From contig CALUIR010000018.1 of assembly GCA_944320785.1 (NCBI GenBank), positions 1 to 52,425 on the forward strand: 52,425 nt of DNA, written 5' to 3'. The position numbers and the translations under genes are program-made. Origin of the DNA: an uncultured Bacteroidaceae bacterium. GTDB lineage: Bacteria; Bacteroidota; Bacteroidia; Bacteroidales; Bacteroidaceae. A model generated the notes under the pieces. It made no database searches and had not been told where the DNA came from. It was given only the letters and a program-made list of their open reading frames with translations. Of the stretch, positions 52-44,300 are shown one piece after another (the stretch's first letter is position 1; each line of letters starts with the position of its first letter).

Positions 52-660
52 TTAAATCAATTCAAAACAGTTTCTCACATCATCTTTAAAAATAGTTCTG
101 TTCATCTTATCCAAAGCTATAATTGCCACTCCTAATTCTGATGCAGCATCTTTCAGTTCCTTTATTATTTTCTCCCACATTTGTTCCCAGCCTCCTGCAT
201 CCTCATGGCCATGCATCAGTTGCACATAGTCGATTATCGCCAATTTAATTCCATGTTCTTCTACCAGTCCTTTTAATTTCGATTTAAAATCAAAAATTGA
301 CAAATCCGGAGTATTATCTACATATAAAGGAATATCTCTTAGCTTGCCTACAGCAGCATCGATCCTTTTATCAAACTCTTTATCTCCTCTCATATAGCTC
401 TTTAATTCGGATAAAGTACAACCGCTTTCCATAGCAATGAGTCTATTAACAAACAGCACATTGGACATTTTCAAAGAGAAATACGCAACAGGAATATGAT
501 AATTAATCGTCAAATTGCGGGCAATGGTCATCGCCAACATCGTCCTTCCTCCACGTCTGTAACGGGAGCTAATAACAATCAAGTTGGACAGATGCCAGCC
601 TTTCATAATTTCGTCCAACGGCGGCAAACCTGTCGGAATCATGCTTTCAGATAAACGCAT
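52..660 (-). CDS. DnaB-like protein with inactivated helicase core
   Basis: This 202-residue protein aligns along its length with the RecA-type core of the true DnaB at 23544-25091. Shared blocks include MSNVLFVNRLI, PLYVDNTPDLSIF and the Walker B strand LAIIDYVQLM (Asp144). The catalytic positions are changed. The Walker A GKT reads GRT (Arg39), the catalytic Glu of SLEM is Lys64 (SLKM), and SQLNR reads DKMNR. The N-terminal DnaG-interacting domain and the C-terminal arginine-finger segment are absent. The ATG at 660 has AAGGA upstream. An in-frame TTG at 693 lies at or upstream of the expected transcript start, so I reject it. The gene is more AT-rich than its neighbours. I infer a protein that cannot hydrolyse ATP and may bind DnaB or DNA; a decaying fragment is the alternative. 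Confidence 0.82.
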   Translation of the reverse strand: MRLSESMIPTGLPPLDEIMKGWHLSNLIVISSRYRRGGRTMLAMTIARNLTINYHIPVAYFSLKMSNVLFVNRLIAMESGCTLSELKSYMRGDKEFDKRIDAAVGKLRDIPLYVDNTPDLSIFDFKSKLKGLVEEHGIKLAIIDYVQLMHGHEDAGGWEQMWEKIIKELKDAASELGVAIIALDKMNRTIFKDDVRNCFELI

Positions 661-687
661 AATTATCTTCCTTTGATTTGGTTCATG

Positions 688-726
688 CTGCAAAGGTAGG
701 GCACATGTATGCCAAAGCGCTGCACA
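688..726. repeat. Direct repeat, copy A (partner at 8905-8943)
   Basis: The pattern is CTGCAAAG, 14 variable bases, then TGCCAAAGCGCTGCACA. The same two blocks with the same 14-base gap and one mismatch occur at 8905-8943 in the same orientation, 8.2 kb away. The two copies bracket the DUF262/FtsZ-like/FtsK-like genes. They could be related regulatory sites (copy A contains a -7 element) or remnants of an insertion boundary. Confidence 0.5.
691..698 (-). promoter_or_regulatory. -7 promoter element for the DnaB-like gene
   Basis: On the minus strand this reads TACCTTTG, matching the Bacteroidetes -7 consensus TAnnTTTG. It lies about 30 bases before the ATG at 660. No TTTG is found at 19-20 bp upstream; the nearest (in CGCTTTGGCA) is only 14 bp away. 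The element lies within the direct repeat at 688-726. Confidence 0.5.
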
Positions 727-732
727 AGATTC

Positions 733-771
733 AAAAAAATATCCGCACGCCCAATGAAGGAACGTGCGGAT
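733..771 (-). terminator. Intrinsic terminator after the DUF262 gene pair
   Basis: The perfect 9-bp stem ATCCGCACG / CGTGCGGAT has a 13-base loop. On the minus strand it is followed by ATTTTTTTG. It lies just past the stop codon of the DUF262 gene at 795 and separates that transcript from the DnaB-like gene. Confidence 0.85.
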
Positions 772-794
772 ACAGGAAGCAAAAAACGGACACG

Positions 795-3347
795 CTATTG
801 AAGCAAGCCGCGTTGCTCGAAATCGTCCAGCACTTTGTTCATGAAGTCCACGGCTGTTTCCACCAAGTCTTTGTCTTCCGGCTGTTCCAAGACATAGCGG
901 TCACCATCCCAATGCAATTCTTCCTGCAAGGAAGGCGGAAGCCGGTCGAATGTTTCCTGCGGCAGCAGCCATTCCCATGCATCAAAACCCATCGCGAAGA
1001 TGATGTTGTCCCAACCATTGGGATATTCATTGATGACAATCCCGGCTTTGTCTGCAAACTGCCCGGAATTTCCCATACGCCTTGCGTCATTATACTTCCT
1101 GTACCTGTCAATCTTCCGCGCCACCGCATTGGCCATCGGGCAAACCTGATAGGCATTGTTCAGCGGACGGCTTGAAAAGCTGTGGATGGCTATCATGTCC
1201 AAATCCTCCCACGGACGCATCATGGCGAAATAGAAAGGCGCATAATTAGGGTCGTTTCTCCAATACACCTGTGCGGCAAGCACGTCGGGATACTTCAACA
1301 GATAGTATCCCACCGAATGCCGGTCGGCAGGAATATGCTGCGCCACGAGGGCATCCAAGTCGCTTTCCTGCGAGAATGCCTCCACATAGCGCATCATCCA
1401 CGCATCAAGAGGCGAAGCGCCATCATATTTCCTGCGGAAATGCACCATCCAACGCGGCGTGCCTTTGTATTCCCCGCCCAGAAAAACCGCTTTGCCATAA
1501 GCGCAGTTGCGCACTTTGATTCCTTTGTAACCGAATGCCACAAACAGTTGCGCCTTCGTCAAGGCCGGGGCATGGATGAAGGCATCCACCGCCTCCCATA
1601 CCTTCGCGCAATAAGCCTCATCGACCATGCACCTTTCCAGCACGGATGCAAATGCGCCCAAGTTGCCATACGTGTAAGGCAAATCTTCCAACCGCAAAAC
1701 CAACTCCAACACTTTCGGATGTTGGTAATAGCCCAACTTTGCCTTTTCACGGAGCGCATAATCATCCTTCAATTCCAGCATTTCCAAGGAGACCAGCGGG
1801 TCGGCCTCCGCAGCCAAGGCTTCGAAGAAACGGAGGTATTGCGCCATGTCGCTGACCCTGATTTGCGGCGAAACGGTGACATTGGACGTGTCGAAGTAGT
1901 TATGCTCGTACAAGTAATTCCGGCAAAAGCGCACGTAATCCAGCAAATGCCTGTCAACGGCAAACGTCTGGTGCTTCGTGCAATAAAGCAAAATGGCAAA
2001 CAGCAAGATGTGGTTGGCCGAGAAACTATCGGAACCGCAAGCCGTTTCAAAGAGATCGGTGTTGCCGCCATCCAGCAAACAAACCTTGCCGCTTTCCGCT
2101 TCGTTCGCGAAAATGCTGCCAAAGAACTGGCGGATGCTTCTGTTTGCGGCATCGATGCCATGCAGCGTGTCGAGCATGTCAAACAGCATCCCGCGAAACT
2201 CCTCATGGTTTCCATACACACTGCTTACCGTACTCCAAAGCCCTGCCTTGTAGTCATCGGCATTGAGGGACTGGTGTCCCGGGACGATGAAAAAGAACAG
2301 GCGCGTCAGGTTGTTGAAGAAATGCATGAACGCATCGTCTATCCTGGGAGACGGCACCCGCTCTCCGTTGGCCTTCTCCACTCTATCCAAGTAATCCTGA
2401 TAAGCGATTTTCCAGAACACATCGTTCCATTCATGCTCTATCGAATAGGAGAAACGCTCTTTTTCTTCCCCCTTTCTTGCCTCCACGACAGACAAATAAA
2501 CTCGTAAGGCATCCATGTCGGAAGGGGCAACCTGAAATGAGCCGTTTGCCTCAACGCTGTACTTTCGCTCTATCAAATCAATGAAACTGGCTTTCCAATT
2601 CTCGAAAGCGGTCAATTCCTTGCCACGGGCGTTCATCTTCACATAGAGGCCGTCGGTCAGGTTGTACTGATCCATGTCCAAAACATCGAAGGTGATGCGT
2701 TTGGGAGAATCCGCATACAGGTTGGCCAGCATCGTTGCCTTCTGCGAACAGTAAGGCTCGATGTCCAACATTTCTTCCATGCGTTCCAGCATCTGCATCA
2801 TGGCTTTCACGGTGGGGTCGGCCTGCATGTCGGGGTCATACCAATACTTTTCTTCTATCTGAGCGGCCAAGGGGCTGTCCGGTTCGGCTTGCAGTTCGGT
2901 GAGCTTCCGGCAAAACCGCCCGGAACTGATGCGGGTCTTGTACGTGAACTTGGCCAGTGCCTCCATGCGGCTGCGGAATGTTTGCTGCGCTTCCTCGTTC
3001 CCGTCGCCTGCCGCCGGGGCATTCTTCTGCAACAATGTCCAGTGGAGCAGGAACAACGTGGTCAACCGTTGCTGCCCGTCAAGCGGGAGGAACGGGGCAT
3101 CCTTGGGCATCGCCCCGCCGCTTCCAAAGCTCTCCCTGCCGCCATACACGAAATCGAGGTGGCAAGACATGCCGTCGGGCAGCAGTGCGTCCATCAGCTT
3201 TTTCACGAAATCATCGCGTTTCTCCTTTTCCTTGCCGGTCAACGCCCGTCCCTGCACATAGTCCCTTTGGATGACAGGCACCTGTATGTCATGCTTCCTT
3301 ATAAATTCAAAGAAAGCCACTGTATGGTTGTCATTTTGTGTACTCAT
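795..3347 (-). CDS. DUF262 (GmrSD-type/ParB-like fold) protein, second gene of pair
   Basis: This 850-residue protein carries the DUF262 signature: QRDY at 27-30, the active-site motif DGQQRLTT starting at residue 90, and the later MNARGKELT motif near residue 238. DUF262 proteins have a ParB/Srx-like NTP-binding fold. They form the specificity/NTPase half of GmrSD type IV restriction enzymes and of several other defence systems. The C-terminal half shows no HNH motif and matches no domain I recognise. Its ATG lies inside the 3' end of the upstream gene (17-bp overlap), which implies translational coupling. A strong terminator follows. Target and activity are inferred, not shown. Confidence 0.85.
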   Translation of the reverse strand: MSTQNDNHTVAFFEFIRKHDIQVPVIQRDYVQGRALTGKEKEKRDDFVKKLMDALLPDGMSCHLDFVYGGRESFGSGGAMPKDAPFLPLDGQQRLTTLFLLHWTLLQKNAPAAGDGNEEAQQTFRSRMEALAKFTYKTRISSGRFCRKLTELQAEPDSPLAAQIEEKYWYDPDMQADPTVKAMMQMLERMEEMLDIEPYCSQKATMLANLYADSPKRITFDVLDMDQYNLTDGLYVKMNARGKELTAFENWKASFIDLIERKYSVEANGSFQVAPSDMDALRVYLSVVEARKGEEKERFSYSIEHEWNDVFWKIAYQDYLDRVEKANGERVPSPRIDDAFMHFFNNLTRLFFFIVPGHQSLNADDYKAGLWSTVSSVYGNHEEFRGMLFDMLDTLHGIDAANRSIRQFFGSIFANEAESGKVCLLDGGNTDLFETACGSDSFSANHILLFAILLYCTKHQTFAVDRHLLDYVRFCRNYLYEHNYFDTSNVTVSPQIRVSDMAQYLRFFEALAAEADPLVSLEMLELKDDYALREKAKLGYYQHPKVLELVLRLEDLPYTYGNLGAFASVLERCMVDEAYCAKVWEAVDAFIHAPALTKAQLFVAFGYKGIKVRNCAYGKAVFLGGEYKGTPRWMVHFRRKYDGASPLDAWMMRYVEAFSQESDLDALVAQHIPADRHSVGYYLLKYPDVLAAQVYWRNDPNYAPFYFAMMRPWEDLDMIAIHSFSSRPLNNAYQVCPMANAVARKIDRYRKYNDARRMGNSGQFADKAGIVINEYPNGWDNIIFAMGFDAWEWLLPQETFDRLPPSLQEELHWDGDRYVLEQPEDKDLVETAVDFMNKVLDDFEQRGLLQ

Positions 3348-5340
3348 CGTATGTCCATTTTAAGTCGTTCAAATAATTCTTCCGGTCTTCCTTTGTCCAG
3401 AATCGCGTGTCCGTGGCCTTCGGCACATATTCCTTGCGGAACACCTTCCACGTTCCCCGATACACGCAAGCTCCATGCTCGCCATTTGAGCGGTCATAGC
3501 AATCGGAAATGCGCTGCAAGATGGCACGTTTGGTGTGGAGCAACCCGTTGCCCAAGCAGATGTTGGTGAGGTTGTCCACCAATGCCAAGTTGCTGATACT
3601 GTGGAGTTCCTTTTCATTGATGCCGGCCAACTCGTCAAAATGACGGTCTATCACCCTCAGCAGTTGGCTGTATTCGTATTCATCCGCACGATACCGCTCC
3701 TCCTTTTCCTTCAGCGATTTCTTTGCCTCGTCCGACTTGCTGTCGGCTTCTTCGTCGGCTGTCAGGTGCAGCACGCCGCGCAGACCGTCAACGGCCGCCC
3801 GCAGTGCTTCGTCTTTCAGGTCGTCATCGCTCAGTTCCGCGCACTTGTCTTTGAACCATTGGCAGCGCGTGACGAAATCAATGTCCGCATCCTGCAAGTG
3901 CTGGGGATGGATGTGTTCCAAGCTCGGCGTGGTGGCTTGATAAAATTTGAAGGGGAAATATGCCCTGTCCTGCCCGTGCTTCATGGTTACATCCACGTTG
4001 TAGGCCAGCAATATCCGGACAATCTCCGGGCTGAACTTCCCGTAATACAGGTTCTCGAAGGAGGGTTTTTCCGATTCGCCAAACTTGCGTTCATCAAACC
4101 GTATCAATGCGCCTATCTTCTCTTTCTTCAGCCAATTGATATATGCCCGCCGGTTCCTGCCCTTGAACTCGGTCACCAGCATGCGCAGGGTTTGCAAATG
4201 TTTCTCTGTACCTTGGCGCAACAAGGTGAGGTACAAGCCCGTGAGATGGTACAGCGTCCGATCCTCAAACCAACTGCGGAACACGGCATACGTGTCCTGC
4301 ACATTCGCCCAAAGATTTTTCACCACCTCCTCGTAGGGACGGTTCTTCTGCCGCTCCTGCTCTATGTACTTGTTGAAAATGAGATAATCATAGTCCCTGT
4401 CCGTTTCGGACGCCTTGACCTCGATGAGGTGTTTCTCCTTCAATTCCCTTGCCACGAAGGACAGCACGAGGTCGATGCGCGAAGCCTTCTCGTACTTTTG
4501 CGGGAAAAGCATGGACCACATAAAGTCGTCCTGCAATGCTTTCTCCATGGCATCCCATTCGGTGGACATGCGGAAAGCAACCTGTTTCATCTCGGCCTGC
4601 CTTTCCGGCGCGTACACATCGCATTGGAACAGCAACGCTTTGATGAGTTCCGTGGCCGTCAACGGCGTTTTCCCATAGTTCAAACGCTTGAAAGTGGCGA
4701 TGGAACTTCCGCCTGCCGGTTCGTCCTCATACCAGATAAAGCGCACGTCCGCCTGTTTTTCATTCTGGTCCTCATCCATTTCATAGAAAGGGCGGCCGCC
4801 ATTCACATAAGACGGTTGGCGCAAGACATCTTCCATCAACCTTCGGATGCCGGGATAACGTTTCGCCTTTTCATCGAACCAGTCCTTGATGCAAGCCATC
4901 GCCTGCTTCATGTAGAAATAGTCCGGGTTGCCCGCCATGTCCTCATCGGAAAGCTGTTTCAAGCCTTCATAGGCAAGCATCCCGTTCTCCCACACACGAA
5001 GGTCTTCACCCTTGCCCACGGCGCGTTCGTAGCGCAACTCAAAGACGGGCATCCGCAAATATCCCATCAACAGGAAAAGGGTTGTCAGTCGTTGCTGGCC
5101 GTCAATCACATCAAAGACGAGCCTTCCTTCGTGCGACAAGCTCTCGTTCCGGCAAGCCACCAACGGCTGGAGGCAATAAAACTGCCCTTTCGTTGGAGTG
5201 CTTCGCTGGAACTCAAACAAGTCGTCCAGCAAATCAAGCACTTGCTTAGACTCCCACCTGTAGCCGCGTTGGTAATAAGGGACGTTGAAACGCATCCCCG
5301 TCAAATCGCCCAAATGGGCCAACTTCAGTTTCATTTGCAT
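3331..5340 (-). CDS. DUF262 + DUF1524 (HNH) protein, first gene of pair
   Basis: This 669-residue protein has an N-terminal DUF262 domain: VPYYQRGYRWE at 20-30, DGQQRLTT from residue 80, and RLNYGKTPLT near 219. A C-terminal DUF1524-type HNH nuclease region follows, with LEHIHPQH around 474-481 and a downstream Asn/Lys block (NLALVDN, GNGLL, KR) at 584-605. This is the fused GmrSD architecture of modification-dependent restriction enzymes. The start at 5340 begins a few residues before the conserved block. The open frame runs further upstream through a 42-bp palindrome, but that part looks noncoding. It overlaps the second DUF262 gene by 17 bp, so the two probably work together. Confidence 0.85.
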   Translation of the reverse strand: MQMKLKLAHLGDLTGMRFNVPYYQRGYRWESKQVLDLLDDLFEFQRSTPTKGQFYCLQPLVACRNESLSHEGRLVFDVIDGQQRLTTLFLLMGYLRMPVFELRYERAVGKGEDLRVWENGMLAYEGLKQLSDEDMAGNPDYFYMKQAMACIKDWFDEKAKRYPGIRRLMEDVLRQPSYVNGGRPFYEMDEDQNEKQADVRFIWYEDEPAGGSSIATFKRLNYGKTPLTATELIKALLFQCDVYAPERQAEMKQVAFRMSTEWDAMEKALQDDFMWSMLFPQKYEKASRIDLVLSFVARELKEKHLIEVKASETDRDYDYLIFNKYIEQERQKNRPYEEVVKNLWANVQDTYAVFRSWFEDRTLYHLTGLYLTLLRQGTEKHLQTLRMLVTEFKGRNRRAYINWLKKEKIGALIRFDERKFGESEKPSFENLYYGKFSPEIVRILLAYNVDVTMKHGQDRAYFPFKFYQATTPSLEHIHPQHLQDADIDFVTRCQWFKDKCAELSDDDLKDEALRAAVDGLRGVLHLTADEEADSKSDEAKKSLKEKEERYRADEYEYSQLLRVIDRHFDELAGINEKELHSISNLALVDNLTNICLGNGLLHTKRAILQRISDCYDRSNGEHGACVYRGTWKVFRKEYVPKATDTRFWTKEDRKNYLNDLKWTYDEYTK

Positions 5341-5450
5341 ATCATTTATGGTTTGACAATCACAATTCAATAAACCAATGCCCCGCCCGGACAGGGAGAT
5401 GCCGCGCATCCCTCCTGGGCATCCCGGCGAATCATCCGATAGAATTCCCT

Positions 5451-5492
5451 GCACGATTAATAATCGTACACGTGTACGATTATTAATCGTGC
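5451..5492. repeat. 42-bp perfect palindrome
   Basis: The sequence reads identically on both strands; its left half begins GCACGATTAATAATCGTACA. Each half contains the smaller palindrome ACGATTAnTAATCGT (centres 5460 and 5483). The site lies between the FtsZ-like stop (5502) and the DUF262 start (5340). A third copy of the 15-bp unit is at 30261. It may be a protein-binding operator or a cruciform/hairpin that separates expression of the two halves of the cluster. Confidence 0.85.
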
Positions 5493-5501
5493 AAGGAAAC
5501 T

Positions 5502-6026
5502 TCAAGGACACGCCCGCAATATCTTCCGCAAGGCCTCCGCCACCTGCGCGTCCATCTTCCGGAATGCATCAAGAAAGCCCAGGTCCGGATACTGCGTCCG
5601 CAACCTTTCATTTTCGAAAACCAGCACATCGGGCGTGCATTCTTTCAGTTCGTCCAAAGCTTCATGGGCTGTCGCCATCTGCCTTTCGCCCTCAAAATGG
5701 AAAGGCAAAGTCACGATGCAGGCCGGGACTTTCCCCGCCGCTTTCGCCAAACGAGCCGCCAAAGGCGCGAAATGCGAACCCGTGCGCCTGCCCAAGCAAG
5801 CAAGGATGAACACCTTTTCCACATCTTGCGCAAACAGGCGGTTCATAGCCTCCTGCCGCTCCGCCTCGCTGCCTTGCAGCAAAACATTCTCGCCCGCGCC
5901 GGGATGATTGCGCAAATCGTCCGGCTCCGTGTCGAGAAAAGCAAACCTTGCTCCTTCAAATCCTTGCGCTTGAATGGCAGCGGCTATGTTGCAAGCCCCG
6001 TTGCCGATGGCGATGATGAGATTCAT
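5502..6026 (-). CDS. Truncated, divergent FtsZ/tubulin-like GTPase-domain protein
   Basis: The 174 residues follow the N-terminal nucleotide-binding half of FtsZ. There is a GNGACN loop near the start and FLDTEPDDL where FtsZ has its NTD segment. ACLGRRTGS sits at the tubulin signature position (normally GGGTGTG), followed by IVTLPFHFEGERQM, matching FtsZ T.PF.FEG.RR. VLVFENERL ends the domain. The C-terminal FtsZ domain and tail are absent. The degraded signature suggests altered or lost GTP binding. The upstream gene's TAA directly abuts an in-frame GTG at 6032; I prefer the ATG at 6026. The tight spacing implies one operon with the UDG-like gene. It may modulate host FtsZ, but that is inference. 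Confidence 0.72.
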   Translation of the reverse strand: MNLIIAIGNGACNIAAAIQAQGFEGARFAFLDTEPDDLRNHPGAGENVLLQGSEAERQEAMNRLFAQDVEKVFILACLGRRTGSHFAPLAARLAKAAGKVPACIVTLPFHFEGERQMATAHEALDELKECTPDVLVFENERLRTQYPDLGFLDAFRKMDAQVAEALRKILRACP

Positions 6027-6032
6027 ATTCAC

Positions 6033-6800
6033 TTACAAAATAATGTCATTTACAATCGCCTTGTACAAATCCAAATGCTTTACATATATCCTGCTTTCCC
6101 GCGCGGAAGGGTGATATGTGCGGAAAGCATGCTTGACCGACGGATATTTGTCTTTGTCTAATTCCAATCGTGCCAACTGGCGGGTATTGCCTTCCCAACC
6201 AGCTACAGGCTGATAATTGGACGTGGCAATGCCTAAAATCTGTTGCAATTTAGCTTCCCAATACTTATCCGGCCCGGTGAAGAACACCAACACCTGCGGG
6301 CTGATTCTATTTATTTCGTCTTGTATCACATTAAAGTGTTCGCGTTCTATCTGTTCTAAAAGCATCTGTTGCTGACTCCCCTTTACATTGCGCCCAAGTT
6401 TAACCACATCGTTCCAAACGTAGCGGATTTTCTTGTCTGGATAATGCGCATTAAACGTGTCGATAAAACGGTTCATCCCCCTCCCCATTGATTTTGTGCC
6501 TCTTTTCCCGTTAAGGTCTATTGAGCCTATTTTGTTGTCAAATGTCCTTATCGACATCATGCACTCACTCAGCGGCTGGTTCTGTCGATCGTATTGATAC
6601 CAATCTCCCGATGACATTTCTTGCCCGAAAAGCATGACTTTTATGTCGGCACTATCAAAATCTTCCACATCCTTTACACCCAACAATAGCGGGCTATATT
6701 CAAATCCATACAATCCATTTTCGTCAAGAGCCTTGCATAAATCACTCCATTTTGTTTCATACAACTGCATTAAAGATTCGTTCGTATTCATAACATTCAT
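6033..6800 (-). CDS. Uracil-DNA-glycosylase-superfamily-like protein
   Basis: This 255-residue protein has the layout of a UDG-like fold. A first strand IKVMLFGQEMSSGDWY (53-68) sits where the water-activating GxDP-type loop lies. A central strand VLVFFTGPDKYW (170-181) follows, then a late TYHPSAR (228-234) resembling the HPS/HPSP DNA-intercalation motif. The first motif is not canonical, so base-excision activity is uncertain. It starts 72 bp after the 47-residue gene and abuts the FtsZ-like gene, so these probably share a transcript. The assignment is by motif spacing only; an unrelated DNA-binding role is possible. Confidence 0.6.
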   Translation of the reverse strand: MNVMNTNESLMQLYETKWSDLCKALDENGLYGFEYSPLLLGVKDVEDFDSADIKVMLFGQEMSSGDWYQYDRQNQPLSECMMSIRTFDNKIGSIDLNGKRGTKSMGRGMNRFIDTFNAHYPDKKIRYVWNDVVKLGRNVKGSQQQMLLEQIEREHFNVIQDEINRISPQVLVFFTGPDKYWEAKLQQILGIATSNYQPVAGWEGNTRQLARLELDKDKYPSVKHAFRTYHPSARESRIYVKHLDLYKAIVNDIIL

Positions 6801-6817
6801 TTTTTATAATTCAACAT

Positions 6818-6860
6818 CAATCAGCTTACCTTGGAATACATGTCCGAGGCAAGCTGACGT
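6818..6860. promoter_or_regulatory. Stem-loop between the 47-residue gene and the UDG-like gene
   Basis: The arms CAGCTT / AAGCTG, extended by CCTTGGA / TCCGAGG, form a long imperfect hairpin in the 72-bp gap. On the minus strand there is no T-run after it, so it is more likely an RNA-stability or processing element than a terminator. Confidence 0.45.
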
Positions 6861-6872
6861 AAATGTAGCTTT

Positions 6873-7016
6873 TTACTTCTTAGGCACAAACACGTAGATC
6901 TTTTGCTGCGTATTGATAAGCTTCGCTTCACCGCCTAATTCACGGGCGGCTCTCTGCAAGTCAGACAACGAAGGATACGTCTGCACATTCCCGTTCGGAA
7001 AATTCAATGTGTACAT
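6873..7016 (-). CDS. Small 47-residue protein
   Basis: The frame runs from ATG to TAA and starts MYTLNFPNGNVQTYPS. It has a hydrophilic middle (SDLQRAARELGGEAKLI) and a basic end IYVFVPKK. The pattern strand-strand-helix-strand suggests a small folded domain rather than chance sequence. It lies between the FtsK-like terminator and the UDG-like gene and is probably the first gene of that transcript. I do not recognise the family. Confidence 0.6.
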   Translation of the reverse strand: MYTLNFPNGNVQTYPSLSDLQRAARELGGEAKLINTQQKIYVFVPKK

Positions 7017-7071
7017 GATTATTAGATTTTAGTTTGCCTTCCCAGCTTCTGAAAGACAGGTTCTATTAATC

Positions 7072-7117
7072 AAAAAGAAGCATGAAGCTGCATTGCCCAT
7101 AAGGGCAACGATGCTTC
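7072..7117 (-). terminator. Intrinsic terminator after the FtsK-like gene
   Basis: Two nested stems (GAAGCAT / ATGCTTC and TTGCCC / GGGCAA) are followed on the minus strand by TTTTT. It lies 10 bp after the FtsK-like stop and makes that gene a separate transcript from the downstream cluster. Confidence 0.85.
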
Positions 7118-7127
7118 TTTTATCTTT

Positions 7128-8522
7128 TTAGTCTTCATCCTTTACCACGCCTGCCCGCTTCAACTGCGCCAACAACCGCGTTGCCCGAATGCAGCCAAGG
7201 GCAAAATGTCTTTGCAAATCGGCAGCGTTCACGCCTTTCTTCCTTTTGGCATACCGGGAGGCTTCTTCAAACAACGGGTCGCGTTGCGCCTCCATGCACG
7301 CCTCTCCATTGGTCGCTTCCGGCAAGACATACGCTTCCGCCTCCCCTGCATGTTCATGAACGTAGCGCACCACCCGCGCTATCTCCGGCATATCCACCCA
7401 TGCGCCTTGCGCACGGACAGTTTCGCCATTCGCGGAAAACAACAAGTCGCCACAGCCCATCAAACAGTTAGCACCGGGTTCGTCAAGGATAGTGCGCGAG
7501 TCTATCACGGAAGAAACACGGAATGCCACCCTTGCCGGGAAGTTGGCTTTGAGGGTGCCGGTGATAATATTACAGGTAGGCCGCTGGGTGGCTATCACCA
7601 AATGGATGCCAACGATGTGCGCCAATTGCGCAAGGCGAACGATGAGCCGCATTGCTTCTTCGCCTGCTGACAGGAGAATCTCGCTGAGTTCGTCAACAAC
7701 GGCTACGATAGATGGCAAACGCTTGCGCGAAGGCAAAGCATTGTATTCTTTGACATTGCGCACCTGCGCCTCTTTCAGCAAGGCATAGCGGATGTCCATC
7801 TCCTTGCAAAGAGACCGAAGGGCATCAACGGAAGTACCAACATCGGCCGCCACCGCACTGCCACCATCGGACAGCTTGGCAAGGAAAGCATCACCCAAAT
7901 CCCTATATACATCAAACTCCACTCCCTTAGGATCTATCAACACGAATTTAAGTTCATCGGGACGCTTCGCATAAAGCAAGGAGACAATCAGGCTGTGGAG
8001 AAACACCGTTTTCCCTTGCGCGGTAGCGCCGCCCACCAGCAAATGAGGCATCGCAGCCAAGTCAGCCGCCAACGGTTCGCCAGCCACGGTTCGACCGATG
8101 GCCACCGGCAATTCCATATTGCTGTCCGCAAAGGCCGAAGTTTCCAAGATGTCCCTCAAAGCCACCGTGCAGGGATGGTCATTGCCGATTTCAATGCCGA
8201 TTGTTCCCGTTTTCAGGGACGGCATGGGTATCACGATGCGCAAACCTTTCAGCGATGTACCTAACATAAAATCATCTTCCATCCCGCGCAACCTGCGCAA
8301 ATAGGCACCCGATTCCAATGTCACTTCATAAAGGCTGACGGATGGCCCGGCATGCACCTCTATGGAAGCAACGACATCCATTCCTAACCATGCAAAGATT
8401 CCCGCAATCTGTTTCTTTTTCCGTTCCGCTTCTTCTTCCGGCAAGAACGAAGCAACCGCGTTTCCCGATTCAGACAATAAATCGACGGGAAAGCATTTTC
8501 CATTCACATTCGTTTGTTCCAT
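7128..8522 (-). CDS. Soluble FtsK/SpoIIIE-family DNA translocase
   Basis: The 464 residues contain the whole FtsK motor and no membrane segments. The alpha domain spans roughly 30-130. Walker A GATAQGKT is at 165-172, FVLIDPKG at 193-200, Walker B AVVDEL at 274-279, and the IATQRP segment follows. A C-terminal winged-helix gamma domain spans about 415-464, starting DPLFEEA as in FtsK gamma. Chromosomal FtsK is usually about 800 residues with four N-terminal membrane helices, so this is a free-standing paralogue. Such motors pump double-stranded DNA in a hexamer, and gamma domains read KOPS-like sequences. Its neighbours are an FtsZ-like and a DnaB-like relic and DUF262 genes, which suggests a mobile or defence setting. 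Confidence 0.88.
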   Translation of the reverse strand: MEQTNVNGKCFPVDLLSESGNAVASFLPEEEAERKKKQIAGIFAWLGMDVVASIEVHAGPSVSLYEVTLESGAYLRRLRGMEDDFMLGTSLKGLRIVIPMPSLKTGTIGIEIGNDHPCTVALRDILETSAFADSNMELPVAIGRTVAGEPLAADLAAMPHLLVGGATAQGKTVFLHSLIVSLLYAKRPDELKFVLIDPKGVEFDVYRDLGDAFLAKLSDGGSAVAADVGTSVDALRSLCKEMDIRYALLKEAQVRNVKEYNALPSRKRLPSIVAVVDELSEILLSAGEEAMRLIVRLAQLAHIVGIHLVIATQRPTCNIITGTLKANFPARVAFRVSSVIDSRTILDEPGANCLMGCGDLLFSANGETVRAQGAWVDMPEIARVVRYVHEHAGEAEAYVLPEATNGEACMEAQRDPLFEEASRYAKRKKGVNAADLQRHFALGCIRATRLLAQLKRAGVVKDED

Positions 8523-8992: not shown

Positions 8993-9667
8993 TTATTCCT
9001 CTAAATACAGGCAATTGCCGTAGCGGAGGCAGTCGCAGAACACGATCTTGCCGCCGCCTGTTCCCTGACGCTCCGTCACTTCGGCCACGCGGTTATGCCC
9101 CACGATTTGCGTGAAGCCATGCAAAGGGTCGTCCAATTCATCGATGTCCGCCCAGAAGATGCCGCCCCGATCCCCCTTGCGGCCGCCCCGCAACTCTCCC
9201 ACACGGCACAAGGATGCCACTTGTGCGTCGGAAGGATGGTTCAATTGTTCAGCTATCGGGCGGGAGATGTCGCCACGGAAATCTTCCGTGAACCACGCTT
9301 GCGAGATGCCTGCATGGGTGAATACCTTGTTGCCTTCTTGGCAAGCATACTGGAACAGGCTGAAGTTTTCCAAAAAAAGCTGGGAGGCTTTCTCCGCTAT
9401 CTGATAGTTGAAGCGCGAAGCAATGGGAGCGTCGCTGCTGAAATAGTGCAGGTCGTGGTTGCCCAGCAGCAGCACCACATCATCGGGGCGGCTCCTTTTC
9501 AATGCCATGATGGCTCGCAGGTTGTCCAGCAACGTTTTGCCGGGAATATACTCGTAAGGGTCCAGGTAATCCCCCAAGAACACAATGCGGCAACCGGGAT
9601 GGGCTTCCACTATTTCCCTCCAATAGTCCAACCCGTGTATGTCGCCTATCGCTATCATCGGTTTCAT
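8993..9667 (-). CDS. Calcineurin-like metallophosphoesterase
   Basis: This 224-residue protein has the di-metal phosphoesterase motifs in order: GDIHG at 8-12, GDYLDP about 25 residues later, GNHDLHYF in the middle, a late FTHAG and IVGHNRV. This is the class of PPP-type and symmetrical ApppA-hydrolase-like phosphatases; the substrate cannot be told. It begins 4 bp after the stop of the exonuclease gene, so the two form an operon. The product could act on protein phosphates or nucleotides. Confidence 0.85.
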   Translation of the reverse strand: MKPMIAIGDIHGLDYWREIVEAHPGCRIVFLGDYLDPYEYIPGKTLLDNLRAIMALKRSRPDDVVLLLGNHDLHYFSSDAPIASRFNYQIAEKASQLFLENFSLFQYACQEGNKVFTHAGISQAWFTEDFRGDISRPIAEQLNHPSDAQVASLCRVGELRGGRKGDRGGIFWADIDELDDPLHGFTQIVGHNRVAEVTERQGTGGGKIVFCDCLRYGNCLYLEE

Positions 9668-9671
9668 GCGG

Positions 9672-10166
9672 TCACAATACTTTTATGGCAATGCAAGCGC
9701 AAGCCTCGGCATCGGCCAAGGCATGATGGTGCTGCGTCAGGTCATAGCCGCAACGCGCCGCTACCGTGGGCAACCGATGGTCGGGAAGTTCCTTGCCGAA
9801 CACCCGGCGGGCGGCACGGCACGTGCAATGGAACTCATACCCCGGATAATCCATCCCATAAGCACGGAACACGGCTTTCAGGCAACCTTCATCGAAAGAA
9901 CTGTTGTGGGCCACCAAAGGCAAGCCTTCGATCAACGGCGCCACTTCGCTCCATACCTCCGGGAAAAGGGCTGCATTGGCGGTATCTTGACAGGTCATGC
10001 CATGCACCCGTGTATTCCAATAATCATAATACTCAGGAAAAGGACGAATCAAACGGTACAAGCGTTCCGATACTTCCCTGCCGCGAACCACCACAATCCC
10101 CACGCTGCACACGCTGGAAGGATTGCGGTTGGCGGTCTCAAAATCAATGGCTGCAAAATCATTCAT
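9672..10166 (-). CDS. DEDDh 3'-5' exonuclease (DNA polymerase III epsilon-like)
   Basis: In 164 residues the three Exo motifs are visible. Exo I is FAAIDFETA near residue 4. Exo II is VAHNSSFDEGCL in the middle. Exo III is HHALADAEAC near the end, with the DEDDh histidine. A VHGMT segment typical of the family precedes Exo II. The length fits a stand-alone epsilon-like exonuclease used in DNA or RNA trimming; it lacks extra domains. It is followed after 4 bp by the metallophosphatase gene. A TATTTTTG -7 element (10192-10199) lies upstream. Confidence 0.88.
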   Translation of the reverse strand: MNDFAAIDFETANRNPSSVCSVGIVVVRGREVSERLYRLIRPFPEYYDYWNTRVHGMTCQDTANAALFPEVWSEVAPLIEGLPLVAHNSSFDEGCLKAVFRAYGMDYPGYEFHCTCRAARRVFGKELPDHRLPTVAARCGYDLTQHHHALADAEACACIAIKVL

Positions 10167-38393: not shown

Positions 38394-41300
38394 CTAACGC
38401 CGGATGAAGCGGAACACCGCTTGCCGCATGCCGCTACCGGCCTGCAGCAAATAGAAGCCCGGCGACAGGTGACGCACGTCCATGCGAAGGGTAACTTCGC
38501 CCCGGCTCTCCGCATCGAGCAGCACGCGCCCGTCAGCGCTGACCACCTGCAGACGGGCATCCACGCCGGAAGGCAGGCCGTCCACCACCAAATCATCCCC
38601 GTCCATCCAGGCACGGAGCGCAATGCCTGCCTCCGTTTCCTCAATGCCGGAACCGTCGAAGTCCTTCTTCTCAATCTCTATCGTGGCCGAAACCGAAGCA
38701 TCTTCTGCCGAAGTGGCGCGTACTACTACGATGCCATTGTCCTCGCCCACGGCACGGAGCATGCCATCTGCAGAAATGCTCGCCAAGGATTCTCCTTCAT
38801 CCAAACTCCAAACCACTTCCTGCGACGCACCTTCGGGATAAACGATGGCCTGCAACTGGATGGAAGGAACAGACGGAGCCAATGCCTCCACCCCGTCCGG
38901 CAACGCAATGGAGATGCTGGCCGGGCGAAGGTCTATCTTCTGTATCGTCAGTTCGGCTTTCAACCCGGAACCGTCGATGACCGCCGCCTGCACCACAATC
39001 CGGCCTTCCTTGTCCGTGTCCGCCGCCACTAATTCCCCCGAAGAAGTGACAGTGGCCAAGTCGCTGCCGGAGAGGATGCTCCATGCCACTTGGCGTATCG
39101 TGGCGTTGGCCGGAAGCAGTTCTGCATACAAGTGCAGCGCCGGTTGGCGGACAGACAGCACATCCGTCCCTTCTAACACCCTTATGTTCAAGCCGTTGAC
39201 AAAGACAGTGCGGATGGCTTGCGCCGTGGACACCGCATTCGAGCGAGCCGACACGGCTTCCCCGGCCTGCGGGGCGCGGATCGGCGCATCCCATGAAGAT
39301 GAGGATGCCCATCCCGTTTCGGCCACATTCTCGTAAGACAAGGCATAGACGTACTCGCCGCTGCCTGCCGTCTGGTCCGTGTAACTCATCTCGTAGCCCG
39401 AAGCTGTCGTGAGTATCTGCATGTCATCAGCAGACGTGCCGCGCCATATCGTGTATTGGTCCACCACGCCGCCCTCGTAAGGCGTCCAAATCATGTTGAT
39501 GGCTCCGTTCAACCCTTGGTTCAGCATCAGATGCACGCTGCCATGCACCGCGCCGGGCTTGCTTTCGCCGCCATACGTGGTTGCCAGTGCAATGCGGTAA
39601 CGGTTCTTGCGCACCGACGGGTCGGATGCTTCATCCACATACGAAGTGGCCGTCAACGGCAGTTCCGCCAATCGGACAAAGTTATCCGTCTGCCCGCTTT
39701 CCTTATATACAATGATGCCGTCGAGCAAGTCCGTACGCGCCAAAACGCTTTCCGGCACCTCCCATTGCAGTTTCACCTTGCCCGTGGCCTCGTCCACGCC
39801 CACGATGGAGAGTTCCGGCACGATGCCTTCTTCCACCGTCACGGGATACTGCGCCACGCGCTCGCCGCAAACGGCATCCACGTAATGCACGGCAAGGGTG
39901 TAAGTGCCGGCCGCCATCGGGAAGGTGGCTTGCGCGTCGAGGGAAGCGCCGTCGCGGGCAATCACCAGTTCCTCGCTTTCATCGCAATCTATCCACACCT
40001 TGTTGGAAGGATCGGCGAAAACATGCGGAAGGCGGAACGCCACCGTACTGCCGCCCAACACCCGTTCCGGCAAGTCCATGTCGAGGCTCACCGTGTCGCC
40101 CCGCACGTAGAATGAGGCTTGCGCCGTGCTGCCGTTCCAAGCAGCCGTCACGGTCTTCACGCCGCTGGTGGGCCACAGGATGCTGGCCGTGCCGTCCTCG
40201 TTGAGGGTCACTTCGCCGTCGCCTGCCGTCCATTCGGGTTTCGCGCCCGATGCCCCGGCAGCCACATAGCGTGCCGTCACCGCATCGCCCACGCAAACCT
40301 TGTCGGCAGAGAACAGGATGGCCGCCGACTCGTCCACGGTGAACGTGAAAGGTTCAGAAATGGCAGAAACAGCATTCCACAGATCAATGGCCTGCACGCG
40401 CAATTCGTATTCCTCGCCCGGCGTGAAGCGCGACAGCGGCATCACGTAGCTGGTGGAGCGCACATACGGCCAGCCTGGCACAACGGCTGCTGCATCGCGC
40501 CCGCCATTCATGGGCGAAACGAGGTAAGCCTCCGCGCCCGTCGCGCCTTTCTTCTTCACACTGACGTTGTAGCGCATCTGCACCTTCGGCGTTTCCTTGT
40601 CCATCGCGTCGTCCCATTCCAGGACAACGCCATTCTCGGTCTGCCGCATGCGGAGGTTCGTGGGTGCTTGCGGGGCCGTGTTCCCGATGCGGGAAGCGAG
40701 ACGGCAATACCTGTCGGCGCTCGTGCTGCTTTCCCGCCTTGCCAAGTCTGGTACGCCGTCGCCGTCCACATCTACCATTATATTATAGGTGTAGCGGAAG
40801 GAAGAACCCTCCTCCTCCACCTCTTGGCATTCGAAGCGGTTCCCGTAGTTGTAGGCCACCACATGGGAAAGCACCACGTCGGGATAACCGTTGTTGTCCA
40901 CATCGTGCAGAGCAGAGAGGTTCTCGCACGCTATCGGGAGGTAAACAGTTTCGTTGCGGCTGAACGCCATATCGGCATCCCCGTAATGGATGCGCACCAT
41001 CCGTGTGGTCTCCAGCGTCACGATGTCGGCATGCCCGTCGTTGTCCATATCGGCCAAGGCCGTGTGTTCGTTATCCACCCAAAGGGAAACGGGGATGCGC
41101 AGGAACGTCCAGTTGCCGAGGTTCTTGTAAACCACCACGCTGTCCTTCGGGTCGTTCAGGTCGCGGCGTTCCCCCACGCGGCCCACAAGGTCGGTGTATC
41201 CGTCGCGGTCGATGTCGCAAGCGCCGAGGTAATCATAAGACAAGTAAACGCTCACGTCCTGCCCCAGGCGGTCGGCAGTCGTCACGTCAAACTGCATCCT

Positions 41301-44300
41301 GCCCGTGTTGCGGAAGATTTCATCGGAAGAATAGCTTTCACGGTACAAGTCGGGCAGGCCGTCGTTGTCCAAGTCCACCAGATGCTTGATGGAGTTCCGG
41401 CTGCGGTCGAAATAGGTTTCATCCGACACTTCGGAAGCGGTGAAGTTGAAGCCGTCCCCGTTGAGGAAGAGGTTCCCTTTGTTGTTCGTCCCTGCCAAGT
41501 CGGGCAGGCCGTCCATGTCGTAGTCCACCACGTTGACATCATTATACTGTGTGTTGAACGTCAGGTTCAGGTTAAATATCTTGCCCACGGCGTTGAATGC
41601 GCCCTTTCCTTCGTTCTCGTAGAAGCCATTGTATGCCGTGATGTCCGCATCGCCGTCGCCGTCCCAGTCGGCATACGCTTGCGGCGCGTTGCCGATGCCC
41701 AATGTTTCCTGTTCCCTGCCGGCGGCATACACCGCTACTTCCTTCATCGTGGCCTCCGACACACGGCCTTGCACGTCGGTCACGGTGAGTTCAATGCAGC
41801 GATCGCCCGGCGTATGGTACACCAGCCGGATGCATCCGCCTTCCTCGCTGACCACCGCCGCGCTGTCGCCGAATGCCCAATCGTATGTGCAACCTTCGGA
41901 AGACAGGTCATGGAAAGCCACGGCCAGCGTGTCGGCCGTTGTCATGGAATTGCGGTCCAATGTGAAGCCTGAACCGACGGACACATGCTCATACGCCAGT
42001 TCCTCGCTCCATGCGCCGCCCCGGTGGTTGGGGTCGATGGCCTGCACGGCGATGTAATACGTGCCGGGATTCCAGTTGGCCACGTTCATCCAATAGTGGA
42101 GGGAATGCCCCATGTTGCCATCGCGCAGGTTGAGGCGCGTGCCGTCGGCCGTGGCATGTGCATACACGATATCGCCCAAACCCGGTGCGGTGCCGACGCG
42201 CAAAGCGTAAGTGAGATCCACCGATGAACTTTCGGCATCGCTTCCTGCCGGCCATGAGACGGAAAGCATCCGGGTGTCGGCCTCATAGATGGCGGAAGGA
42301 CGCTCCATCTTCGCGGGAGCGGTGTTGGGCGTCCCGGCAAACTTCACGACGGCAGTCTTTGACGTGACAGCACCCGATGAGTTGTCCACATAGCTTCCTC
42401 CGGCATATTCGATGATTCCGTCGCCGTCCAAGTCGCCGATGAACAGGCCGTCCGTGAGGCCATAATAGTCGTATTCCGGATTTCCCCCCGTGAAGCCATC
42501 CAGACGCAGGACAGCATCCAGCGAAGCAGTGCAGTCGATGAGGCGGAAAGTCGGCGCATCGTTGGGATTGCCCGTTGATTGCTGCGCCACCACTTCATAG
42601 AGGCCGTTGTTGTCCACATCCACACAGTCGATGAACTCCAACTGTTCCGCGAAAGAATGTTCCACTTGGCGGAACGAGCCGTTGCCGTCGTTGCGGTAGA
42701 ACACCAAGAAAGCGTAGCCCGGCGTTTCCACATAGTCGAACGACAGGAGGATGTCGGCATCGCCGTCGCCATCGAAGTCGTAGCACCAGGCGTTGGACAC
42801 CACGAGGTCGCTCACCAGCAATTGCCGGGTGATGTCGCCGTCGGCATTGTAGGACACCAAGATGGTCTGCTCGCTGTCTTCGTTGTAAATCACGTAATCG
42901 GGGATGTCGTCGCCCGTCAAGTCCTTGATGGAAAGGATGCGCCCGCCGATGCTTCCGCAGTAGAAACGGTTGTCGCCATAGTTGAGCCACGCCATGCCAT
43001 CGTCCAAACTTACGAGGTCGGTGTAGCCATTTCGGTCCACGTCGATGGCCGTCAACGCCTCCTGTGCCGACCCTCCCCCGCCATAACCGGCCAGCATCTG
43101 GGCAAATATCTCCTTCATGGAAGGCAACGGGGTGGCCGCCACATAGCGATGAGCCACGGCAGATTGGTAAACAATGCTATCGACTGCCGCCGTGTCGATG
43201 AGCGTGATTTCCACGGGAAGGTACGACCCGTCGGCTTGCGCGTGGTAGAGCTTGCCGTCCTGTCCCAGCACGTCTGCCCGCCCGTCGGCATCCACATCGG
43301 CAATGCCCTTGATGTTGTCTGGAAACTGGGCATAGAGGTTCATCGCGCCGTCCACCAAGCGGTAGAGGGCATCCTCACCGGCATAATCGATGACACCATC
43401 ATTGTCCACGTTTTGATAGGAGGAAAGGTTACGGTTTCCCCCGATGTCCAGGCTGCCTCCGCCGATGCCCAACATGGTGTAATACCGCGCCGGCCTTTCG
43501 TCAATGCTGAAATATTCCATGTATCCGTCATGGTCCATGTCGTAAACCGTGGCGCGGCGGCCCATCCAATGGGTAGTCGGCTCGCCGCTTGGCACGCTCC
43601 GGGTCCACAGCGTGTCGGGCAGGTTTCCTTCCAACGAGCCGATTTGCAGGTTCTCGTTGCGGAACATGCGGGTGAGGTCGAGGGCCACCACGTCATCGGC
43701 AATCACCAGTTCGTCGATGCGGGCGGCATCCGTGGTGAAGCCTTCGTCCACCAAGGCTTTTGTGATGGTGAGTTCCCGCAGATAGGAATCATCCCCTTCG
43801 CCGAACGCATAGGGGCCGACGTATTCCACGCTTCCGGGCAGTTCATAGTCCTGCAAGGGGCAGCCGTAGAAGGCGTATTCCTCCACCCGCTGCAACGAGG
43901 AGGGGGTTTCAAACACGAGGGACGAAAGCCCGCTGCACCGATAACAGAAATAAGCAGGAATGCGCCGCACCCCGCTGCCCACCGTCATCGTCATGGCTGC
44001 GCCCGATGGCGGGAAGGCCACATTATCTTTGTTGAAGTCCGCGCAGTCCACGGCATTCCATGCCACTTGCGCCAGGTTTGCGCTGCTGAATGCTTTCTCG
44101 CCCACCGCAGCCACCCCTGCCCCGACCTGCAGACGGGCAAGGTTGGGGCAACCGCTGAAGGCATACGCCCCGACACCTTCCACAGAACCAGGAATCAGCA
44201 CCTCAGATACGGAAGTGCCTTGGAACAAATAAGCGGGAATGTATGCCACCTTGCTGCCGAAAGACACGGAAGCGACCGTGGAAGGAAACGGTTGAGCGGA

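Follow-up and report, generated by a model that had tools for sequence, protein, structure and literature searches.

A candidate modular defence locus of gut Bacteroidales with a truncated FtsZ-like protein, a UDG-fold protein, an FtsK motor and paired DUF262 proteins

The window analysed here is the complete contig CALUIR010000018.1 (52,425 bases) of an uncultured Bacteroidaceae bacterium (assembly GCA_944320785.1). The cluster under study, in its first 8.5 kb, encodes in order of transcription an FtsK-like DNA translocase (FtsK), a 47-residue protein (P47), a protein resembling uracil-DNA glycosylases (UDG), an FtsZ-like protein (FtsZl), two DUF262 proteins (DUF262a and DUF262b) and a DnaB-like protein. 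Because FtsZl, UDG-like, FtsK and DUF262 genes are found in company again and again across gut Bacteroidales, in varying combination and order, sequence comparison suggests a modular system, probably antiphage, that has not been described before. We favour, at about even confidence, a mobile and modular Bacteroidales locus acting against invaders, probably phages, in which GmrSD-like effectors and a captured FtsK motor form one block and P47-UDG-FtsZl a second, exchangeable block serving as sensor or regulator cassette. Defence would be the likeliest role of the locus.

An earlier, sequence-only reading of this DNA had placed these seven genes on one strand within 8.5 kb, and all seven are indeed open frames of the minus strand, with the following features:

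7128..8522, minus strand: FtsK-like soluble DNA translocase, 464 residues, with alpha, motor and gamma (winged-helix) domains by Pfam
7035..7090, minus strand: predicted H-type pseudoknot in the leader of the P47 gene (stem 1, 7090-7084 with 7049-7043; stem 2, 7058-7051 with 7042-7035)
6873..7016, minus strand: P47, 47 residues, predicted beta-beta-alpha-beta-beta fold
6033..6800, minus strand: UDG-superfamily-fold protein of type UDG-C, 255 residues (AlphaFold2 model; motif A FGQE, motif B HPS)
5502..6032, minus strand: FtsZl, 176 residues, FtsZ N-terminal nucleotide-binding domain only, without T7 loop or C-terminal domain
5445..5498, no strand assigned: 27-nt palindrome directly 3' of FtsZl, arms 96% complementary, no spacer
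3331..5340, minus strand: DUF262a, ATG at 5340 in a frame open to 5511, DUF262 with a C-terminal HNH/DUF1524-type signature
795..3347, minus strand: DUF262b, second DUF262 protein, 850 residues, overlapping DUF262a by 17 nt
739..773, minus strand: hairpin resembling an intrinsic terminator (14-bp stem followed by a T tail), downstream of DUF262b and ahead of the DnaB-like gene
52..693, minus strand: DnaB-like RecA fold, 213 residues, lacking the Walker A lysine and ending before the DnaB C-terminus

The sequence-only reading allowed that the grouping might be accidental and proposed a search for shared neighbourhoods over Bacteroidales. That search was positive: the set recurs in other genera and families, in scrambled order and with strong divergence (loci L043, L087, L197 and L198). 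In a family-wide sample of 201 genomes, own genome included, there was one clear FtsZl relative (41% identity, E 1e-41), in G007 of another genus; the next match, E 2e-23, lay in a 429-residue frame. Its locus, L043, reads DUF262a-DUF262b-FtsK-P47-UDG::FtsZl, with identities to the window of 27.5% for DUF262a, 33.8% over 302 residues for DUF262b, 38% over 302 residues for FtsK, 62% for P47 and 41.8% for FtsZl. The DUF262 pair thus stands on the opposite side of the FtsK-P47-UDG-FtsZl set from that seen in the window, so that order has changed and content has been kept. Here UDG and FtsZl form a single protein of 405 residues, UDG-like (type UDG-A) in its first part and FtsZl in its second, behind which come one more protein, RtcB and the metallophosphoesterase also seen in the window (69.5%). 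L100, in G035 of the same genus as G007, has the same arrangement, with an FtsZl match of just 44 residues. A locus from a third family, L087, reads FtsZl-UDG-FtsZl::FtsZl-P47-DUF262a-DUF262b, with a RecA-like ATPase 1.2 kb on, and two loci found without P47 read FtsZl-DnaB-like-DUF262a-DUF262b (L197) and DUF262a-DUF262b-FtsZl (L198). Since gene content recurs in this way, the grouping of the window genes is more than chance and, on these comparisons, biologically real but modular. The modules are separable, and the locus is therefore better described as a modular island than as one fixed operon, its linkage real but loose.

Block 1 (FtsK, the DUF262 pair and the DnaB-like gene) is shared between genera. 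In G102, from another genus, FtsK-DUF262a-DUF262b-DnaB-like lies between two unrelated genes, presumably for xylulokinase and tyrosyl-tRNA synthetase. Identity to the window is 81% for FtsK (residues 1-403), 88% for DUF262a, 86% for DUF262b and 66% for the DnaB-like protein, compared with 64% for trigger factor; because the block exceeds trigger factor, these identities point to its horizontal transfer between genera. Matches to G102 DNA run as far as window position 7132 and start again at 5334, 42 bases separating the two in G102, and since they break off and resume at gene borders, P47-UDG-FtsZl (block 2) appears as a precise insertion or deletion. In G025, of the window's own genus, FtsK and the DUF262 pair are 89-91% identical to those of the window though trigger factor is 100% identical, and a 41-residue FtsZl remnant is retained between FtsK and DUF262a. 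FtsK is thus encoded beside a DUF262 pair in the window, G025, G102, G007 and G035. The ratio of nonsynonymous to synonymous substitution rates (dN/dS) lies below 0.31 for FtsK (0.30 in comparison both with G025 and with residues 1-403 in G102), DUF262a (0.14-0.21), DUF262b (0.16-0.19), the DnaB-like gene (0.28) and P47 (0.03 against L105, over 47 codons only), indicating purifying selection.

The truncation of the FtsZ-like protein held up on profile analysis. Window FtsZl matches Pfam Tubulin/FtsZ (2.6e-13). Two alignments with 14 members were made, and the FtsZl profile covers no more of FtsZ structures than the stretch from about residue 5 (or 33) to 190-220. The T7-loop pattern was found in 0/22 FtsZl frames of 17 P47 loci (pieces included) and in 0/4 FtsZl found without P47, and the same pattern is present in 19/23 longer FtsZ frames. 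How well the glycine loop and a T4-like loop are conserved differs between members (GNGACN and GRRTGS in the window, GGGCGTG in others), the T4 pattern being missing in 2/14 members. In a tree, the 14 FtsZl and 23 canonical FtsZ fall on opposite sides of one branch with support 98/98, long branches being a caveat, which places FtsZl, by sequence, outside the FtsZ clade of the order.

The same profiles bear on whether the cluster could be what is left of a plasmid or conjugative element, with replication and partition genes (FtsK, DnaB, tubulin-like) surviving beside restriction genes. The gene list does resemble partition and replication functions, and the DnaB-like gene is degenerate in both the window and G102. 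Most FtsZl profile matches to cell-division FtsZ, however, are at 1e-35 and better, far closer than those to plasmid and phage tubulins (1e-7 and weaker); the low dN/dS values also speak against a remnant, and no integrase or relaxase was recognised among the frames read, although no profile search was aimed at them. We regard this origin as very improbable.

A profile search of 393 genomes of the order, with short open frames read, placed FtsZl in at least seven genomes; contig-end hits in G336, G258 and G356 were set aside and a 306-residue frame in G348 was left out. Three of the seven (own, G427 and G567) had helped to build the profile, and four (G471, G280, G383 and G350) were new finds, with no P47 match in 17 kb around their FtsZl. 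DUF262 genes lie within 10 kb of FtsZl in 5/7 genomes (own, G427, G471, G280 and G350, the last with DUF262b only in the stretch compared). G567 has only a 59-residue DUF262a piece near a contig end, and in G383 a PD-(D/E)XK-type nuclease adjoins FtsZl in place of DUF262. The FtsZl gene of G471 overlaps that of a short DnaB-like ATPase whose Walker A is intact, and the DUF262 pair comes next. A class-wide search of 295 genomes gave, among the matches listed, no FtsZ frame shorter than 292 residues besides that of the window, frames of 292 residues in G864 and 343 residues in G638 being left out. Viral contigs showed no FtsZl or P47 relative in scans limited to short peptide patterns, and four records of a phage collection had matches over 38% of FtsZl.

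FtsZl domains occur in tandem in L087/L165, L142 and L147. The double FtsZ N-terminal domains of L165, L142 and L147 measure 376-398 residues, and a RecA-like ATPase, a PLD nuclease and what we take to be a DUF932-like protein lie further downstream. In L111 (8088-9500), FtsZl is fused behind a long stretch that by eye consists of short hexapeptide-like repeats, and L112 has hexapeptide-like repeat proteins as separate genes upstream of FtsZl.

The UDG assignment made by the sequence-only reading rests on structure modelling. Neither it nor three relatives of the three types (UDG-A, UDG-B and UDG-C) had a Pfam hit, and a PDB sequence search with it gave no match better than E 0.86. Its AlphaFold2 model (mean predicted local distance difference test score, pLDDT, 79) drew only UDG-superfamily structures among its ten best Foldseek matches, with UdgX, TDG and family 4 first. 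F58, G59 and E61 of motif A and H230 and P231 of motif B are invariant (12/12) in the UDG-C-type alignment, and the protein has a predicted UDG fold with motifs A and B. Of the three types, modelling covered UDG-C. The motif has Glu where family 1, by the numbering we assume, has its catalytic Asp. In fold and motifs the protein resembles UdgX and family 4 UDGs; it differs from them in a sequence relationship undetected by Pfam or PDB search and in the fusion of its UDG-A type to FtsZl in L043.

FtsK was described as a soluble motor, and this description stands. The protein matches Pfam FtsK_SpoIIIE (7e-46) as well as FtsK_alpha and FtsK_gamma, its Walker A motif (GATAQGKT) is intact, no membrane domain was recognised in its 464 residues, and its best PADLOC match is SspH. 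The DnaB-like protein matches Pfam DnaB_C (3e-37), and its description as a catalytically dead copy is supported: GK[ST] is missing in the window and G102 copies, and the more distant relatives in L197 and L159 keep it.

These copies invite a guard or decoy explanation, in which FtsZl, the broken DnaB-like protein and the UDG-fold protein would mimic host proteins that phages target, and an inhibitor that binds a mimic would free the DUF262 nucleases. FtsZl and the DnaB-like protein are truncated host look-alikes, the latter without its Walker lysine, and phage inhibitors of DnaB and of UDG exist. A phage inhibitor of FtsZ is likewise known, namely lambda Kil, according to the part of PMC3961180 available. 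The intact Walker A of the window FtsK and of the L197 and L159 DnaB-like proteins does not suit mimicry, however, and the explanation fits poorly because FtsZl is far diverged from FtsZ; we consider it quite improbable.

Both DUF262 genes match Pfam GmrSD_N (DUF262) above the cut-off (4e-26 and 2.5e-15). Of the proposal that two DUF262 genes overlap and that one is fused to HNH, the 17-nt overlap stood, as did the HNH signature, whose E-H and N-x-x-L...N are invariant in 11/11 aligned DUF262a; a Pfam GmrSD_C match did not extend to the window copy, though it was present in 7/11 aligned DUF262a. DUF262a carries QRGYRW and DGQQR, and DGQQR is invariant in 11/11 aligned DUF262a and 8/8 aligned DUF262b. 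Profile and model matches include the SspE, Orf5 and HEC-06 models and solved structures of SspE and other DUF262 proteins in the PDB, among them 7p9k, which we take to be BrxU. DUF262a is accordingly predicted, on sequence, to be a GmrSD/SspE-like nuclease. In the part of PMC10952713 available, DUF262 is an NTPase controlling DUF1524 nucleases against modified or phage DNA, and it occurs in GmrSD, BrxU and SspE. The likeness of the window to these systems lies in the QRGY.W, DGQQR and HNH-type E-H ... N..L...N motifs of DUF262a and in its structure matches; unlike them, the window has two paired DUF262 proteins together with FtsK, UDG, FtsZl and P47, and no phosphorothioation genes were recognised in it. 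A plasmid collection held 16 records with distant DUF262a matches, all below 60% identity.

P47 is modelled with high confidence (pLDDT 97) as beta-beta-alpha-beta-beta, and its fold has no significant structural match. It occurs in 7/393 genomes of the order, own genome and a stop-containing fragment (G319) included, and in 62 loci of an 84,980-species collection in which 195 stretches matched the pattern. One record title names a Spirochaetaceae; the rest name Bacteroidales, related groups or Candidatus genera, and these last we take to belong to Bacteroidales or related groups. With the window the set comprises 63 loci, among which 17 pairs of near-duplicate contexts remain, and their genes were labelled by profiles: UDG-A in 15, UDG-B in 23, UDG-C in 4, FtsZl in 17, DUF262a in 22, DUF262b in 16, FtsK in 8, DEDD exonuclease in 21 and WYL regulator in 33. 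A UDG gene starts within 4 kb of P47 in 40/63. P47 may mark an exchange point, or be a shared regulator, for variable cargo. One contig (JAFSOU010000095.1) carries three P47 copies within 73 kb (L136, L137 and L149), with different genes behind each. L105 is a decayed form of the window locus: FtsZl and the DnaB-like gene survive there as pieces, DUF262 has no match, and the gene between a conserved P47 and FtsZl is UDG-A instead of UDG-C.

The P47 leader of the window is predicted to form a pseudoknot whose score, in one fixed geometry, was reached by 0/100 dinucleotide shuffles. Among 52 P47 leaders, window included, at most 2/100 shuffles reach the score in 14 (besides the window L105, L109, L113, L114, L120, L123, L130, L132, L133, L141, L151, L162 and L163) and no shuffle does in 10, while 32 leaders do not fit the geometry; in the pseudoknot as drawn, both stems vary in sequence between loci with pairing kept. 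The geometry was chosen post hoc, as a free pseudoknot search on these leaders had given mixed ranks; near-duplicate contexts were removed and related leaders remain (L128 equals L129; L120, L151 and L163 are alike). For these reasons, and with 32 leaders that do not fit, the pseudoknot is a lead from sequence. A second, shorter type seen by eye (e.g. L165, L150) did not clearly beat shuffles, and no Rfam family exceeded its gathering score in the window stretch, while six related loci yielded a tRNA and nothing else.

From these observations we infer a defence role, its targets and a possible working of the locus. Block 1 would be a GmrSD/SspE-type nuclease effector with a motor captured from cellular FtsK: DUF262a (NTPase and HNH) with DUF262b would recognise and cut foreign or modified DNA, and FtsK would travel along DNA, carrying the complex to DNA or DNA to the nuclease. 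Block 2, gained or lost as a whole at the junction of FtsK and DUF262a, would contribute a UDG-fold protein that reads or binds unusual bases and an FtsZl that, with its nucleotide pocket kept and its T7 loop and polymerisation domain lost, could switch in response to GTP or cap filaments of the FtsZ type; reasoning from FtsZ structure, an N-terminal domain without T7 could be at most a filament cap or switch. Because they are fused in L043, UDG and FtsZl may cooperate, and P47 probably has a regulatory role, for which the pseudoknot of its leader might be the target. A more integrated version, an immune system in which shortened host FtsZ and FtsK copies and an inactive DnaB copy are wired to a UDG-fold sensor and the DUF262 pair, with FtsZl as switch, cap or decoy and with P47 and its pseudoknot setting expression, seems to us unlikely.

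Several observations weigh against the modular defence locus as one cooperating whole. Transcription is likely to involve several units, as the sequence-only reading had cautioned: a palindrome after FtsZl, a hairpin after DUF262b and intergenic gaps suggest four (FtsK; P47-UDG-FtsZl; the DUF262 pair; the DnaB-like gene). The palindrome at 5445..5498 is a possible terminator or site separating FtsZl from DUF262a; terminator-like hairpins number 11 in all against 12.4 expected by chance, and that at 739..773 has the longest stem listed. DUF262b-like genes (E 1e-10) occur in 27/201 family genomes; 16 other neighbourhoods, some cut by contig ends, were compared by tblastn and eight further places were left out. 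DUF262a adjoins DUF262b in all 16, and matches to FtsK, P47, UDG and FtsZl are missing at 15/16, the sole exception being L100, with FtsK, P47 and UDG matches. Around the UDG relatives of nine other genomes, compared over ten neighbourhoods of 11-17 kb, none of the other window genes has a match. The sequence-only reading would have been undone by genes that occur independently, and for these pairs and UDG neighbourhoods they do, while the set also recurs jointly. Its interpretation is partly supported, and its suggestion of a system that cuts DNA and also disturbs replication and division is a hypothesis. The first labelled gene after P47 is UDG in 27/63 loci, ADP-ribosylglycohydrolase in 9, PD-(D/E)XK in 5 (two members scanned with this label are PD-(D/E)XK nucleases), DUF262a in 3, others in 6 and none labelled in 13, and DUF262 or PD-(D/E)XK genes occur in 10/17 P47 loci with FtsZl against 18/46 without, no clear enrichment. 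The fold match of the UDG-like protein is weak (template modelling scores of 0.31-0.39 on the query; only UdgX 6ajs, E 7e-4, falls below 0.001). The FtsK frame of G102 is disrupted after about residue 403 and that of L105 is split in two, the DnaB-like frame ends 51 nt from the contig end, and some FtsZl are pieces or contig-end fragments (L105, L119, L121, L163); matches to the L129 frame and to a second frame in L128 are weak. PADLOC has no FtsZl model, and 1/14 members drew a stray REase_II match.

Much of this would be expected if unrelated systems (the DUF262 pair, FtsK, P47-UDG and FtsZl) repeatedly landed in one Bacteroidales hotspot as defence-island neighbours and did not cooperate. 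The modules are separable, several transcription units are likely, and P47 loci carry an island-like mix that also includes WYL regulators, DEDD exonucleases, ADP-ribosylglycohydrolases, RtcB, PLD and RhuM. Mere neighbourliness, on the other hand, does not readily account for the UDG::FtsZl fusion, for the exact insertion or loss of block 2 and the sharing of block 1 as a unit, or for the four FtsZl loci found without P47, three of which still have DUF262 genes, and one a PD-(D/E)XK nuclease, at a distance of under 10 kb. FtsK, present in 8 of the 63 loci, and FtsZl, present in 17, also coincide in 5, with a hypergeometric p of 0.028 on a set that still contains near-duplicates and fragments; one FtsK is a 123-residue piece (L139). 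We therefore think independent arrival somewhat doubtful, and retain the mobile, modular locus as the preferred reading.

Other published systems share some of these traits. Cellular-type FtsK motors and domains captured by nuclease systems are a theme of the comparative genomics in the part of PMC10853773 available, where the Dnd/Ssp-related HerA/FtsK systems include a nuclease locus whose FtsK has the alpha domain that normally marks the cellular protein. In the window, judged by gene content, a motor is likewise encoded with nucleases in a mobile locus; it differs in its separate FtsK with alpha and gamma domains, its DUF262 effectors and its FtsZl and UDG partners, and the terms FtsZ and DUF262 are absent from the main text of that paper. 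The FtsZl1 family (PMC2875224, available in part) is likewise an FtsZ-superfamily group without the regions for canonical filaments, lacking T6-H7. Most FtsZl1, however, carry coiled-coil and helical C-terminal parts, whereas the present FtsZl has the N-terminal domain only (sometimes in tandem or fused) and is close to cell-division FtsZ; the term 'Bacteroidetes' is absent from the main text of that paper. Literature searches returned, among the matches listed, no paper linking FtsZ-like proteins to DUF262 or GmrSD systems: in the available parts of PMC11341870 (FtsZ and DUF262), PMC7641849 and PMC5512222 (both FtsZ and GmrSD), the terms occur in unrelated places.

Two further genes lie upstream of FtsK, both known from the frame list and a family scan:

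8993-9667, minus strand: metallophosphoesterase
9672-10166, minus strand: DEDD exonuclease

Genes for DEDD exonuclease, metallophosphoesterase, WYL regulator, ADP-ribosylglycohydrolase and RtcB recur around the window locus (8993-10166) and many P47 loci. Elsewhere the window holds an open reading frame of 2445 residues (38394-45731, minus strand).

If the favoured reading is true, the nucleotide-binding half of FtsZ has left its role in cytokinesis and been put to new use next to restriction-type nucleases, which would add a new class of component to nuclease systems with captured motors. An immune role would, to our knowledge, make FtsZl the first tubulin-family protein to be a component of bacterial immunity. 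The UDG::FtsZl fusion makes the partnership of these two proteins directly testable, and gut Bacteroidales would gain a candidate defence system whose modules are distinct and of which natural variants exist.

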